A stretch of DNA of 33,564 bases, from positions 1-33,564 of the forward strand of contig JAFUGL010000094.1 in NCBI GenBank assembly GCA_017469405.1, given 5' to 3'. The number at the start of each line of letters is the position of its first letter. The first letter of the stretch is position 1. The position numbers and the translations under genes are program-made. The notes beneath the pieces were generated by a model that saw only the letters and a program-made list of their open reading frames with translations, was not told where the DNA came from and made no database searches. This document shows positions 5,440 through 9,456 of the stretch, piece after piece. This DNA comes from Lachnospiraceae bacterium. GTDB lineage: Bacteria > Bacillota > Clostridia > Lachnospirales > Lachnospiraceae.

Positions 5440-6945
5440 CTAAAATCTAAAATATAAAAACGGATTAAATGCTTCACTTGCCAGAAATGCTGTCGACATA
5501 AGCAAAACAAAAAGCAAAAATACTGCTTCCAGGATGCCTGCAGCAATACCTCTTCTTTCAACGTTTTTGACTCCGTTGTTCTTGCCGGACTCCTCGTTTA
5601 TGTTTGACTTATCACCGGCGTCTTCCTCTTTACTCTTTCCCTCAAGCTTGGCTATAAGCTTCACTGCAAGCTCCCTCGGATACGGAGTAGCCGCCACAAA
5701 GGCGATAAGCAAAAACAATCCGTAAGAAAGCAAAATATATACAGTATAATTATTGGTAAGTGAAAGACCTCCGAATCCAAACATATTTCTTACTGCGGTC
5801 TTTAATTCACCAAATTTATCATAAGCAAATATTACCCATCCAAAGTTAATGAAAAAGAGTGCATACAGATGAGCCAGAAGCTTTGGCCATTTCTCCAATT
5901 TTTTAAGCAGCCACACCTTTTCAATCACAAGTAGCACAAAATAATAAAGTCCCCATATCATAAAATTCCACGAAGCGCCATGCCAGAATCCTGTTAAAAA
6001 CCATACTATAAAAAGATTTCTATAGGTTTTAGCCGTCCCTTTTCTGTTACCGCCGAGAGGTATATAGACATAGTCCCTAAACCAGGTGGATAAGGATATA
6101 TGCCATCTCCTCCAAAACTCCGTAAGACTCTTTGATATATACGGATAGTTAAAGTTTTCAAGAAACTTAAAGCCAAACATCCTGCCTAAACCTATCGCCA
6201 TATCCGAATAACCTGAAAAATCAAAGTATATCTGAAGTGTAAATGCTATCGAACAAATCCATGATAATACTATGGTATTTTGATCCTTTGGAAGCTTGGA
6301 AAGCGTATTAAATATCTCACCTGCCATATTGGCTATAAGCACCTTTTTACCGAGTCCGGTAACAAATCTTCTTACGCACTCGCCAAAATCATCGACATTT
6401 TCCCTACGTTCTTCAAGCTGCTTGGCAACCGTCTCATATCTTACTATCGGTCCTGCGATAAGCTGTGGAAAAAGAGTAATATAAGTCGCAAGATTAATTA
6501 TATTCTTCTGCGGCTTTGCAGTCCTCCTATAAACATCTACCGAATAAGTAAGAATCTGGAAGGTATAAAAAGATATTCCAAGAGGCAGAGAAAGATTAAC
6601 CGCCTTTATATGAATGTGCGGAATCTTATTGATATTATCCGTAAAAAAGCCCATATACTTAAAGAAAAACAATATACCGAGATTGATAATAACCGCAAGC
6701 GCAACCATCCACTTTGCCGCTTTTATCTTCTCTTTGTTCACATAATAATCAGTAAGCAGACCCATAACATATCCGACAATTATGGATGCAAGCATCACAA
6801 AAACATACTTAGGCTCACCCCATGCATAAAAAAGGAGTGAAAACACCATAAGTACGAAATTCTTAATCGCCCTCGGACTTATATAATACACCAGCAAAAC
6901 CACCGGCAAAAATGCAAATAAAAAAGTGATGCTTGAAAACAGCAT
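5440..6945 (-). CDS. MBOAT-family O-acyltransferase (AlgI/DltB-like)
   Basis: The protein has 501 residues and is polytopic, with about ten or more membrane helices. Family landmarks are 'FWRRWHISLSTWFRDYVYIP' (about 277-296) and 'WFLTGFWHGASWNFMIWGLY' (about 315-334), where H322 is the expected catalytic histidine. A hydrophilic Lys/Glu/Asn stretch at about 440-465 precedes the last helix. Proteins of this family move acyl groups (usually acetyl) across the membrane onto exported polysaccharides. The DHHW partner follows immediately. The ATG at 6945 has TAGGGAG seven bases upstream. The long upstream region holds the 75-bp inverted-repeat array, whose nearest arm sits where a -35 element would be expected. 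The acyl donor and target polymer are not visible. Confidence 0.93.
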   Translation of the reverse strand: MLFSSITFLFAFLPVVLLVYYISPRAIKNFVLMVFSLLFYAWGEPKYVFVMLASIIVGYVMGLLTDYYVNKEKIKAAKWMVALAVIINLGILFFFKYMGFFTDNINKIPHIHIKAVNLSLPLGISFYTFQILTYSVDVYRRTAKPQKNIINLATYITLFPQLIAGPIVRYETVAKQLEERRENVDDFGECVRRFVTGLGKKVLIANMAGEIFNTLSKLPKDQNTIVLSWICSIAFTLQIYFDFSGYSDMAIGLGRMFGFKFLENFNYPYISKSLTEFWRRWHISLSTWFRDYVYIPLGGNRKGTAKTYRNLFIVWFLTGFWHGASWNFMIWGLYYFVLLVIEKVWLLKKLEKWPKLLAHLYALFFINFGWVIFAYDKFGELKTAVRNMFGFGGLSLTNNYTVYILLSYGLFLLIAFVAATPYPRELAVKLIAKLEGKSKEEDAGDKSNINEESGKNNGVKNVERRGIAAGILEAVFLLFVLLMSTAFLASEAFNPFLYFRF

Positions 6946-7009: not shown

Positions 7010-7038
7010 ATTATAATCTGAACTTTTTTAATTACCTA
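7010..7038 (-). promoter_or_regulatory. Possible MBOAT promoter overlapping the first array arm
   Basis: On the minus strand TATAAT (7015-7010) lies 65 bases before the MBOAT start. The -35 position, with a 17-base spacer, falls on 7038-7033, which is AGGTAA, part of the array arm TATAGGTAA. The -35 match is poor, so if this promoter is real it would probably need an activator or be blocked by a protein bound at the arm. Other AT-rich -10-like strings nearby make this one candidate among several. Confidence 0.3.
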
Positions 7039-7372
7039 TAGAATAGGAAATAATTTCAATCTTTATAGGTAAAAATATTATTCCATTACTAAATTGATTT
7101 CTTCAATTACCTATAAAACTGATACATATTGCGCTTCTTATAGGTAAAATAATTAATAAAAGAGATGCTAAAAATCTTAAATTACCTATAAGTCTACTAC
7201 TTACTCCCCATCTTATAGGTAATACCATCAATCGGCAACCTGACGAACTTAGTAATTTACCTATAAATCTATCACATGAAATCAACCTTATAGGTAATAC
7301 CATCAATTATCAAACTGACGAACTTCATAATTTACCTATTAATCTACCTCATGAAGCTTATCTTATAGGTAA
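7033..7372. repeat. Array of five inverted-repeat units on a 75-bp period
   Basis: Each unit is exactly 41 bases: TTACCTATA, 23 variable bases, TATAGGTAA. Units span 7033-7073, 7107-7147, 7182-7222, 7257-7297 and 7332-7372, so starts are 74, 75, 75 and 75 bases apart. Nine of the ten arms are identical over 9 bases; the exception is the left arm of unit 5 (TTACCTATT). In several units the complementarity extends to 10-11 bases (TTACCTATAAG/CTTATAGGTAA). The 33-34-base spacers between units 3-4 and 4-5 are about 80% identical, while those of units 1-2 and 2-3 have diverged. The loops differ strongly, yet the arms are kept. Arm centres alternate at 32 and 42-43 bases, close to 3 and 4 helical turns. 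The array lies upstream of the MBOAT gene and downstream of the helicase gene. Confidence 0.95.
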
Positions 7373-7557: not shown

Positions 7558-9372
7558 TCAATCCTTAAGAAAAGAACTCCTACTCTTCGGTTTCCCGGCG
7601 ACTTCTTTCGGTGTATATACATAAAGCTCGTGACGGGCACGCGTCATGGCTACATATAGCATGCGGCGTTCCTCTTCTATCTCTCCGGATGTTTTAGCCT
7701 TCTTGTATGGGATGCAGCCGTCTACTACGTTCATGATGTAGACACAGTCAAACTCAAGTCCTTTTGAACTGTGCATGGTCATAAGGCGAAGACCCTTCTT
7801 TTCTTTTTCTTCTATCTGCTGCTTCTTTAAAACCTCCGAATACTCTTCAACAAATTCAAACAACTCACCATAACTTTTAAAGTCAACTATCATGCTTGCA
7901 AACTCATCTAAAACCTCATATAACTCATTTGCATCCAACTGTCTGAACTCAGCATAGTCCTTTATGTAATCATTAAATCCGACAGCATTTCTTATGAAAT
8001 TAAGCGCCGGATATGGACGCATCTTGCTTATAAGCCTTAAGTCCGCGATAAGCTTGTCAATTCTTTCAACCACATATTCCTTATCCCTTGCCCGGTATCT
8101 TAAAGCATTAAAATCAATCTCATCCTCAAGTAGAAGATTTCTGCTTATATATCTGCTTGGCTTATTCATTATCTGCAGGAAAACCGACCTGCTTCTGTCA
8201 CCCATGGCAAAGCGCATGTAATTAAGCACACCCTTTACGACAAAATGCTCAAATATGTTTGGCAACGTATCGCTTATGGTATAAGGTATATTAAACTGAT
8301 TAAGCTTATATACAAGACGCCTTGGCTCGATATTGGTACGATAAAGCACAGCCTGTTCTTCGTAAGGTATGCCTGCCGCAAAATGCTCTCTGACATTTGA
8401 AATAATCGCATCATTTTCAGAATTGGTATCTTCTGTTTCAATTATTTCAAACTTGCCATCCGCAGCATTATTTGAAACCAGCTTTTTATCAAATCTCTTT
8501 TTATTGTCTGCAATAAGTTTGGACGATACCTTTGTAATCACTTTGTCGCATCTGTAGTTTTCTACAAGATAATATTTTCTGGTGTTTTTAAAATCCTTCT
8601 CAAATAAAAACATTATCTCCGGTCTGGCTCCGCGAAAGCCGTAAACAGACTGGTCATCATCGCCGACTACAAATACATTTTCCAAAGGCTTTGCCAAAAG
8701 CTTAAATATCTCATATTGAATTTTGTTACTGTCCTGAAATTCATCAATCATTATATACTTAAATATTTCTCTGCAGCGTTTAAGTATATCCGGTCTCTTA
8801 TTTAAAAGCTCATAGCACATAACCATCATATCGTCAAAATCAATTTTGCCGAACCGCTTCATCTCATGATTAAATCTCTTATAAATCTCTCTGAATTCAT
8901 CCTCGGGCATATCCTTGCTATAATAGTTTTCTATATCTATCATATCGCATTTAACTATACCTATCTGCGCGATAATACTTGATATGATATCCTCTTTATT
9001 TTCATATTCAAGAGACATCCCCGAAAGAATTTTATCTATTAACTTTCTCTTTTCATCATTTGAAATCACACTGGAATTGTTTAGATTGTATGCTGTCTTA
9101 ATAATCCAAAAATAAATCGAATGAAATGTACCGAATCTTACCTGATGGTTTTTCCCTCTTGTCATAGCCTTAAACCTTTGTTCCATCTCGTGGGCTGCCG
9201 CTCTGGTAAAGGTTATAACAAGAATATCTGCGGGCGAAACACCCGCAGATTCTATTAAATACTTTATTCTACCTGTAATGACTGCTGTCTTTCCGGAACC
9301 CGGCCCTGCAATAACCATACACGGCCCATCTACATGCTTAATCGCATGCTCCTGTTCCTTACTGTAATTCAT
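7558..9372 (-). CDS. UvrD/PcrA/Rep-like superfamily 1A DNA helicase (short form)
   Basis: The protein has 604 residues, shorter than typical PcrA/UvrD (about 720-750). All main SF1A motifs are visible: Q-motif region 'NYSKEQEHAI', Walker A GPGSGKT (23-29), 'YIMIDEFQDSNKIQYEIF' (Walker B), 'VVGDDDQSVYGFRGARP', 'LVENYRC', 'LMTMHSSKGLEFDCVYIMNV' and 'RRMLYVAMTRARHELYVYTP'. It should be an ATP-driven 3'-5' DNA translocase acting in repair or replication restart. The shorter length suggests reduced accessory subdomains and no C-terminal RNA-polymerase-binding tail. I chose the ATG at 9372 because AGGAG lies seven bases upstream; the longer frame from 9390 lacks a site. It lies 84 bases downstream of the SEC-C gene and may be co-transcribed with it. 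Confidence 0.92.
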   Translation of the reverse strand: MNYSKEQEHAIKHVDGPCMVIAGPGSGKTAVITGRIKYLIESAGVSPADILVITFTRAAAHEMEQRFKAMTRGKNHQVRFGTFHSIYFWIIKTAYNLNNSSVISNDEKRKLIDKILSGMSLEYENKEDIISSIIAQIGIVKCDMIDIENYYSKDMPEDEFREIYKRFNHEMKRFGKIDFDDMMVMCYELLNKRPDILKRCREIFKYIMIDEFQDSNKIQYEIFKLLAKPLENVFVVGDDDQSVYGFRGARPEIMFLFEKDFKNTRKYYLVENYRCDKVITKVSSKLIADNKKRFDKKLVSNNAADGKFEIIETEDTNSENDAIISNVREHFAAGIPYEEQAVLYRTNIEPRRLVYKLNQFNIPYTISDTLPNIFEHFVVKGVLNYMRFAMGDRSRSVFLQIMNKPSRYISRNLLLEDEIDFNALRYRARDKEYVVERIDKLIADLRLISKMRPYPALNFIRNAVGFNDYIKDYAEFRQLDANELYEVLDEFASMIVDFKSYGELFEFVEEYSEVLKKQQIEEKEKKGLRLMTMHSSKGLEFDCVYIMNVVDGCIPYKKAKTSGEIEEERRMLYVAMTRARHELYVYTPKEVAGKPKSRSSFLKD

Positions 9373-9456
9373 AAACAAACTCCTATACAATTAGTTACAC
9401 AGCATTTACAAAGTTCCTTTATACATTAGTTAAAGGCTTACATATACATATAATCT

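Follow-up and report, generated by a model that had tools for sequence, protein, structure and literature searches.

An array of short inverted repeats between two genes of a Lachnospiraceae bacterium raises the question of what keeps its arms and its spacing constant when the sequence between the arms is free to change. The window, that is the whole stretch of DNA analysed (33,564 nucleotides), contains this array and its two neighbours in the following arrangement.

7032..7372, no strand assigned: whole inverted-repeat array, helically phased, with four steps of exactly 75 bp each
7032..7072, no strand assigned: array unit 1, left arm TTACCTATAG (one change), right arm perfect
7107..7147, no strand assigned: array unit 2, both 10-bp arms perfect
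7182..7222, no strand assigned: array unit 3, both 10-bp arms perfect
7257..7297, no strand assigned: array unit 4, both 10-bp arms perfect
7332..7372, no strand assigned: array unit 5, left arm TTACCTATTA (one change), right arm perfect
5440..6945, minus strand: MBOAT-family O-acyltransferase gene, a neighbour outside the element, start 87 bp from the array
7558..9390, minus strand: UvrD-family helicase gene, a neighbour outside the element, stop 185 bp from the array

The conserved arm of this array is 10 bp long, TTACCTATAA, inverted as TTATAGGTAA, and eight of the ten copies are perfect, which gives a loop of 21 bp, a spacer of 34 bp and a unit of 41 bp, repeated with a period of 75 bp or 7.1 helical turns. 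The first-pass annotation had described five inverted-repeat units of 41 bp with nine of ten 9-base arms perfect, and a recount confirmed both statements, with units starting at 7032, 7107, 7182, 7257 and 7332. Its regular period also stands, but not the variation of 74-75 bases attributed to it; the span given as 7033-7372 is correct at its end and begins one base too late, and the 9-base arm with a 23-base loop is really a 10-bp arm with a loop of 21 bp. The proposal that all ten arms lie on one face of the helix depends on the point within the arm from which the distance is measured, whereas the period is independent of this choice.

Several simple identities were tried for this array and abandoned. 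A coding repeat, suggested by the period of 75 bp (25 codons) and by one frame that stays open through the last units, was rejected, as stops are found in every frame of the window array and, bar one frame of L011, in all frames of the eight other arrays of the same genome. The window has no Rfam match at the gathering score, the best sub-threshold match having an E-value of 0.64, and a known Rfam RNA family was hence rejected, as was a snoRNA identity, for which there were weak Rfam matches at chance level only. The 741 bp around the array show no excess of promoter-like sites (4 vs 4.3 in shuffles) and contain one terminator-like site, located within the MBOAT gene. CRISPR loci consist of direct repeats that are identical, about 23-47 bp long and separated by unique spacers, and a CRISPR repeat was rejected since the conserved part is here only 2 x 10 bp and in inverted orientation.

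The arms, in fact, are the part of the array that is kept. Among 12 homologous array pairs, whose members were mostly both found via exact-arm patterns and which include some paralogous copies, changes affect 8 of 860 arm positions (0.9%), compared to 124 of 890 in loops (13.9%) and 144 of 1049 in spacers (13.7%), and hence loops and spacers diverge about 15-fold faster than arms. The bias due to arm patterns was checked by searching the bacterium's own genome with up to three mismatches and by fetching regions through their flanking genes only. Two of 25 orthologous regions fetched in this manner held units, all with perfect arms (three units in G020 and one in G014); in the other regions, some of which are cut by contig ends, no unit with up to three mismatches was observed, and lone matches with four mismatches occurred in L072 and L077. 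None of 20 UvrD regions fetched from other genus members has an array following UvrD, and in the fetched genus regions with MBOAT still adjacent and both ends read, the UvrD-MBOAT gap measures 0-107 bp. Loops of random unit pairs share a median identity of only 30%, with their length kept at 19-22 bp. The earlier view that the arms are under selection and the loops and spacers are free is thus upheld by these counts, and neither arms decaying like loops nor random spacing was encountered.

The window array is one of a dispersed set. In the own genome (G000; 2.75 Mb, 138 contigs, 91.5% complete), the two-arm pattern with perfect 9-bp arms gives 41 matches as compared to 0 for the reversed control pattern, and all 41 fall in nine arrays on nine contigs; the total is 43 units when unit 5 of C30 and unit 7 of C56, with loops of 20 and 22 bp, are counted. 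A search of the same genome with the loop fixed at 21 and up to three mismatches recovered 41 units and no solitary or decayed unit outside the nine arrays. Of 112 occurrences of the exact 10-mer, about 82 lie inside arrays, and a control word occurs 24 times, so that exact arms outside arrays are near chance frequency. Searching for the arm pattern in related genomes, as the first-pass annotation had recommended, gave two-arm matches in six of 25 genus genomes and in none of 16 genomes of other families. These six are among the seven closest by full-length UvrD (77-100% identity); no two-arm match was found in G023, the remaining one of the seven, or in G016, represented only by an 84% UvrD fragment. 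A sample of 390 other genomes of the class contained no three-arm match. Arrays of the TTACCTATAA type in the MAG collection belong mostly to Lachnospiraceae-named MAGs of rumen or related sources, with a few further MAGs (RGIG5067, Saccharofermentans RUI507, RGIG5971 and S27M_St_58, i.e. G441), the separateness of these lineages being judged from record titles and array geometry. The general layout across arrays is TTACCTATAA N19-22 TTATAGGTAA. One MAG, G004 (84% complete), contains an array of four units, each with altered arms, as well as a lone unit whose arms are perfect. Viral contigs yielded no three-arm array, and the lone units in IMG/VR (L112, L113), one of which sits inside a gene, look accidental. 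A Geobacteraceae locus (L015) was rejected as the same repeat; L015:1014-1127 holds an unrelated cluster of GTTCCCTATATAGGGAAC-like palindromes.

Unit spacing in TTACCTATAA arrays is restricted to 71-76 bp (7 turns) or 83-85 bp (8 turns), with hardly anything else. Among 140 spacers from 45 arrays, counted after 23 loci were dropped (duplicates, single or unrelated units) and with L101 (the same stretch as L033) and orthologues such as L040/L019 retained, 105 measure 32-35 bp, 32 measure 43-44 bp and three, from one orthologous trio, measure 13 bp, and none is of 36-42 bp; several arrays combine the two main classes. In the S27M_St_58 lineage, the fifteen arrays that were read keep to steps of 84 bp apart from isolated steps of 73, 74 and 69 bp, and the 69-bp step leads to a unit with four mismatches. 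Departures from the usual spacing include a 69-bp step in L115.

What protein might read such sites was approached by clustering the neighbours of arrays. GGDEF/EAL and ABC clusters were set aside as abundant families, and outside these ubiquitous kinds a single family adjoins arrays in three lineages: the genus (L012, L037, L106), G439 (L034) and G441 (L114). Its gene in the own genome lies beside one of the nine arrays:

C134:8566-9417: own-genome gene of the likely partner

The partner protein has about 270 aa, its start codon lies 10-204 bp from the array end, and the proteins linked to TTACCTATAA arrays share only 37-40% identity across the three lineages. The partner belongs to no Pfam or NCBIfam family, with weak matches in one or two members only, and a profile search for relatives in PDB returned nothing below E 0.29. 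Read from sequence, the N-terminus appears coiled-coil-like. Over the last 110 residues or so, all 20 homologues match PADLOC PDC-S68 and 12 of 20 match HEAT_CxxC_PDDEXK, and E181, E198, P211-D212, E227-H228 and K244 are among the residues invariant in 20 sequences; profile similarity together with the conserved acidic and PD residues points to a PD-(D/E)XK-nuclease-like C-terminal domain. This domain is hence common with candidate defence proteins (PDC-S68/S69, HEAT_CxxC_PDDEXK), although the best PDC-S68 models are of about 1,200 aa and match with their C-terminal ends only, and models of about 290 aa match over 80-90 aa. Class-wide, the family is found in 37 of 391 genomes, often in several copies, with the weaker matches covering the C-terminal domain only. 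No relatives were found in viral contigs; a 4.2-kb record named 'Bacteriophage sp.' encodes a 33% homologue with no array by the first finder described below. Two plasmids, NZ_AP028130.1 and NZ_CP013539.1, encode proteins annotated as AAA family ATPase that contain a match to part of the nuclease-like region (31.6% identity over 54% and 37.3% over 38% of the query, respectively).

The partner, as a 284-aa protein, is present in 19 of 37 genus genomes irrespective of TTACCTATAA arrays, and its dismissal on this ground was overturned, since most of these genomes that lack TTACCTATAA arrays carry arrays built on other arm words. Indeed, most of 20 further genus regions with partner homologues have such arrays, with arm words such as GGTAACAAA (L123), TACGGACTA (L124), TTACAGTA, TACGGACT, AGTCAACC, GTCCGTGC, TTACGGATA, TGGGTATG, TTGGAGTA and more. 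A second family member, on C96 of the own genome, is accompanied by a GGCTA-type array. In G020 (88% complete) and G024 (97%), both of which bear arrays, the C134 protein has only 38-47% homologues and no close one, and the homologue loci read there show TACGGACT arms in G020 and GGCTA-type arms in G024. No partner homologue was found in G004 at E<=1e-10 (84% complete MAG).

This linkage was quantified with two finders. The first, strict one reported arrays at 11 of 20 homologue loci vs one of 41 control loci, the latter being an orphan array of G023 with TACGGAC arms. The second, applied with 68 loci added, reported arrays at 57 of 88 homologue loci, 50 of them within 600 bp of the gene and 44 of these upstream, compared to one of 20 same-contig loci away from the gene (weak), none of 40 genus loci and none of 68 shuffles (Fisher 5e-17); the 88 loci include orthologues, and counting one per arm word gives 47. 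The genus control set omits L070 and L086 (TTACCTATAA units), L090 and L091 (short) and L081 (orphan array, positive), and with L081 kept among the controls the count becomes two of 61 (Fisher 7e-16). The L081 array (L081:1305-1520, on C9 of G023) has TACGGAC arms and a 53-bp period and lies away from a partner gene; the partner-linked array of G023 has arms related to it. Among the 31 of 88 finder-negative loci, visual inspection reveals weaker or single units in L125, L131, L134 and L136, and several match only the C-terminal domain of larger proteins. Arm similarity moreover rises with protein identity, in a covariation that is weak in size (Spearman rho 0.20 over 1081 pairs, with none of 500 permutations as high), also for pairs below 40% identity (rho 0.17, two of 500 permutations as high), in a set of 44 of the 50 near arrays with at least three exact arms plus L012, L034 and L114.

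The partner-linked arrays with other arms had been picked by protein and not by period, so that their spacing constitutes an independent test of the phasing idea. Their 63 distinct periods, from 50 arrays, cluster at 51-54, 61-64, 71-75, 83-86, 94-96 and 104-108 bp, and the best-fitting repeat is 10.49 bp with a phase near zero (R=0.765; none of 2000 random sets was as good), R being 0.82 with one period per arm word (n=47). A distance of up to 1.5 bp from a multiple of 10.5 is observed for 55 of 63 periods, the eight off-rule ones being 48, 61 (twice), 71, 86, 108, 111 and 113 bp; steps of 104-113 bp are probably skipped units, and excluding them 52 of 57 fit. Seven of the 57 positive loci, with arrays more than 600 bp from the gene, were excluded from these statistics; of these, L129 with its 50 bp departs from the rule, L137, L140, L203, L204 and L208 fit, L172 is mixed, and with such loci included 62 of 72 periods fit. 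Helical phasing is thus borne out, since in both arm sets nearly all shifts in spacing amount to whole turns.

The constancy of the arms, the freedom of the loops and the whole-turn spacing are explained most simply by a DNA-binding partner, and the array-linked gene is the best candidate for it. The first-pass suggestion of a multi-site protein-binding array fits the conserved arms and whole-turn spacing, and we infer binding from these; its alternative of a gene-specific operator is not supported for this array, as the nine own arrays have unrelated neighbours and arrays overall favour convergent intergenic space. No neighbour gene common to the arrays emerged as a regulatory target, and none of ten genomes showed a solitary close operator with outward arms at a distance of 0-30 bp.

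The preference for convergent space could also reflect an array kept by the host for chromosome architecture or as a transcription boundary, with the protein binding gene-end arrays and bridging loci or blocking read-through, its nuclease-like fold serving for binding only, and copy number and sites being host-selected and not selfish. Among 36 array loci (orthologues collapsed by hand), the 28 with both neighbours comprise 11 convergent, 14 tandem and three divergent pairs, vs two, 36 and 11 among 49 other gaps of 150-1500 bp at array loci (p=1.5e-4 for the convergent bias). Such a bias is accounted for equally well by neutral tolerance of sites at 3' ends, and although strict phasing, arms kept at several orthologous sites and the chance level of exact arms outside arrays speak for a host function, the patchy occurrence in close species, with units in two of 25 orthologous regions, speaks against it; we regard this reading as possible and rather doubtful. 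A selfish origin as MITE-like elements, in which the arms are terminal repeats for a transposase or nuclease and the arrays are tandem insertions with no cell function, is in our estimate unlikely. The arrays of C27, C76 and C107 do share short flanks of up to 60-85 bp at unrelated sites, blocks were gained or lost at C56, where a gene of 730-740 aa replaces the array in two relatives (L067, L073) with a remnant of it in a third, and at C119, where G014 carries an ATPase-like gene (so named from motifs), and the arrays occur in several rumen-derived MAG lineages. However, copies of one element should share their loops, contrary to the low loop identity at a held length, integer-turn spacing is unexpected from tandem insertion, and no target-site duplication or clean empty site was recognisable at C56, C119, C27 and C103 against array-less relatives, in which the content differs. 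Another dispersed intergenic element of the genus, a CGGCAGTTACACCC...CTGCCG hairpin, stands beside several arrays (L007:3690-4022, L010, L046, L089). Rfam families at array loci amount to RNase P, a T-box and a tRNA, in three of 12 loci scanned.

A transcribed hairpin array, either a TIGR- or CRISPR-like guide precursor with loops or spacers as guides or a set of 3'-UTR hairpins, would have its arms pair in RNA, and the five consecutive hairpins of the first-pass annotation receive weak support from folding z-scores of -5.6 (plus strand) and -4.7 (minus strand), which is as expected of any inverted-repeat array. In 169 distinct units, five two-sided, compensated arm changes stand against 56 one-sided ones, and hence most arm changes are uncompensated. 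Loop ends pair beyond shuffles in the non-genus lineages (18 units; position 11 in 16 of 18 vs 9.9, p=0.0025, and position 13 in 10 of 18 vs 5.5, p=0.0045) and no more than chance in the genus (54 units). In RGIG5067 and RUI507 (L014, L019, L023, L040), the stem often gains a few pairs from the loop, in contrast to the genus. The box-D-like CTGA, with both strands counted, is present in 83 of 172 distinct TTACCTATAA-array spacers vs 32 in shuffles, near the spacer middle in the logo, an enrichment that related sequences inflate and that may reflect a second contact; box C (TGATGA) is not enriched in these spacers (3 of 172 vs 3.2 in shuffles), and a Pfam scan of 20 partner homologues gave no Nop-domain match at E<=0.1. 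As whole-turn B-DNA spacing would moreover have no reason in RNA, we consider a transcribed hairpin array very improbable.

Among known systems, plasmid partition or replication iterons and multi-site operators offer helically spaced sites for one DNA-binding protein, usually beside its gene. Iterons are direct repeats on replicons; here, in contrast, the arms are inverted, the copies are chromosomal, intergenic and at many loci, and the protein is nuclease-like. TIGR-Tas, according to PMC12045711, likewise has tandem palindromic units beside a single gene, with a repeat kept within a locus and different between loci; the present arrays differ by their conserved arms with variable loops, dispersed orphans and DNA-helix phasing. 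A close comparison is offered by REPIN/BIME-RAYT, in which REP doublets, with palindromic REPs, are associated with the REP-associated tyrosine transposase, as set out in PMC3116915 and PMC2817692. The former describes extragenic doublets of inverted short repeats with a middle spacer, dispersed and sometimes clustered, with each repeat type tied to specific RAYT genes. However, the partner here is PD-(D/E)XK-like and RAYT is Y1/HUH, and units lie at integer helical turns, with arms that are simple words of 8-10 bp instead of the palindromic REPs of those accounts. Y1_Tnp (PF01797) was matched in none of seven array-bearing genomes (incomplete MAGs) and in five of 14 control genomes.

In the window, tblastn with 20 homologues found no partner gene, making its array an orphan copy, and we think it probable that this is a gene-less copy of a two-part element composed of a nuclease-domain protein and helically phased arrays. 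From the geometry, arm conservation, dispersal, gene-array linkage, helical law and arm/protein covariation, it can be proposed how such an element might bind, stack, cut, copy and serve a biological role. One part would be the short tandem array of inverted 10-bp arms with units at integer helical turns, and the other the protein of about 270 aa with its PD-(D/E)XK-nuclease-like C-terminal domain, encoded beside one array. The protein would bind each arm, two protomers in inverted orientation filling one unit, and units 5, 6, 7 or 8 turns apart would stack side by side along the same face of the helix, building a cooperative nucleoprotein assembly. Autoregulation and addressing would fall to the gene-linked array, which usually lies a short way upstream of its gene, and orphan arrays elsewhere would be bound in trans by the same protein. 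Copying may have placed such orphans at intergenic sites, most of them at 3' ends, in the way assumed for REPINs and RAYT, with the nuclease domain as the best candidate for the breakage step. The favoured role of the assembly is the spread of arrays; a role in architecture or as a gene-end boundary and one in defence, the latter from domain kinship only, were also considered.

More broadly, though with somewhat less assurance, we favour the view that these loci represent an undescribed class of two-part genetic element common in Clostridia, in which a fast-diversifying PD-(D/E)XK-domain family, with several paralogues per genome in some cases, has each member read its own inverted-arm word in integer-turn arrays (mainly 5 to 9 turns), with orphan arrays chromosome-wide, either as a nuclease-based counterpart of REPIN-RAYT or as a phased nucleoprotein scaffold or defence. 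A search of open-access PMC found no description of phased arrays with a nuclease-like partner. A large, unannotated set of phased repeats thereby obtains a named candidate partner gene, and one protein family with many DNA specificities is seen to keep a single geometric rule, that of whole helix turns, so that the rules by which DNA stacks cooperatively, and by which a nuclease-like fold changes its specificity, may be readable from sequence. The nuclease-like domain of the partner is common to candidate anti-phage proteins. If the protein spreads arrays, this would be a second way, independent of REPIN-RAYT, of doing what that system is supposed to do, and if the arrays are kept by the host, they would add a new layer of chromosome organisation.
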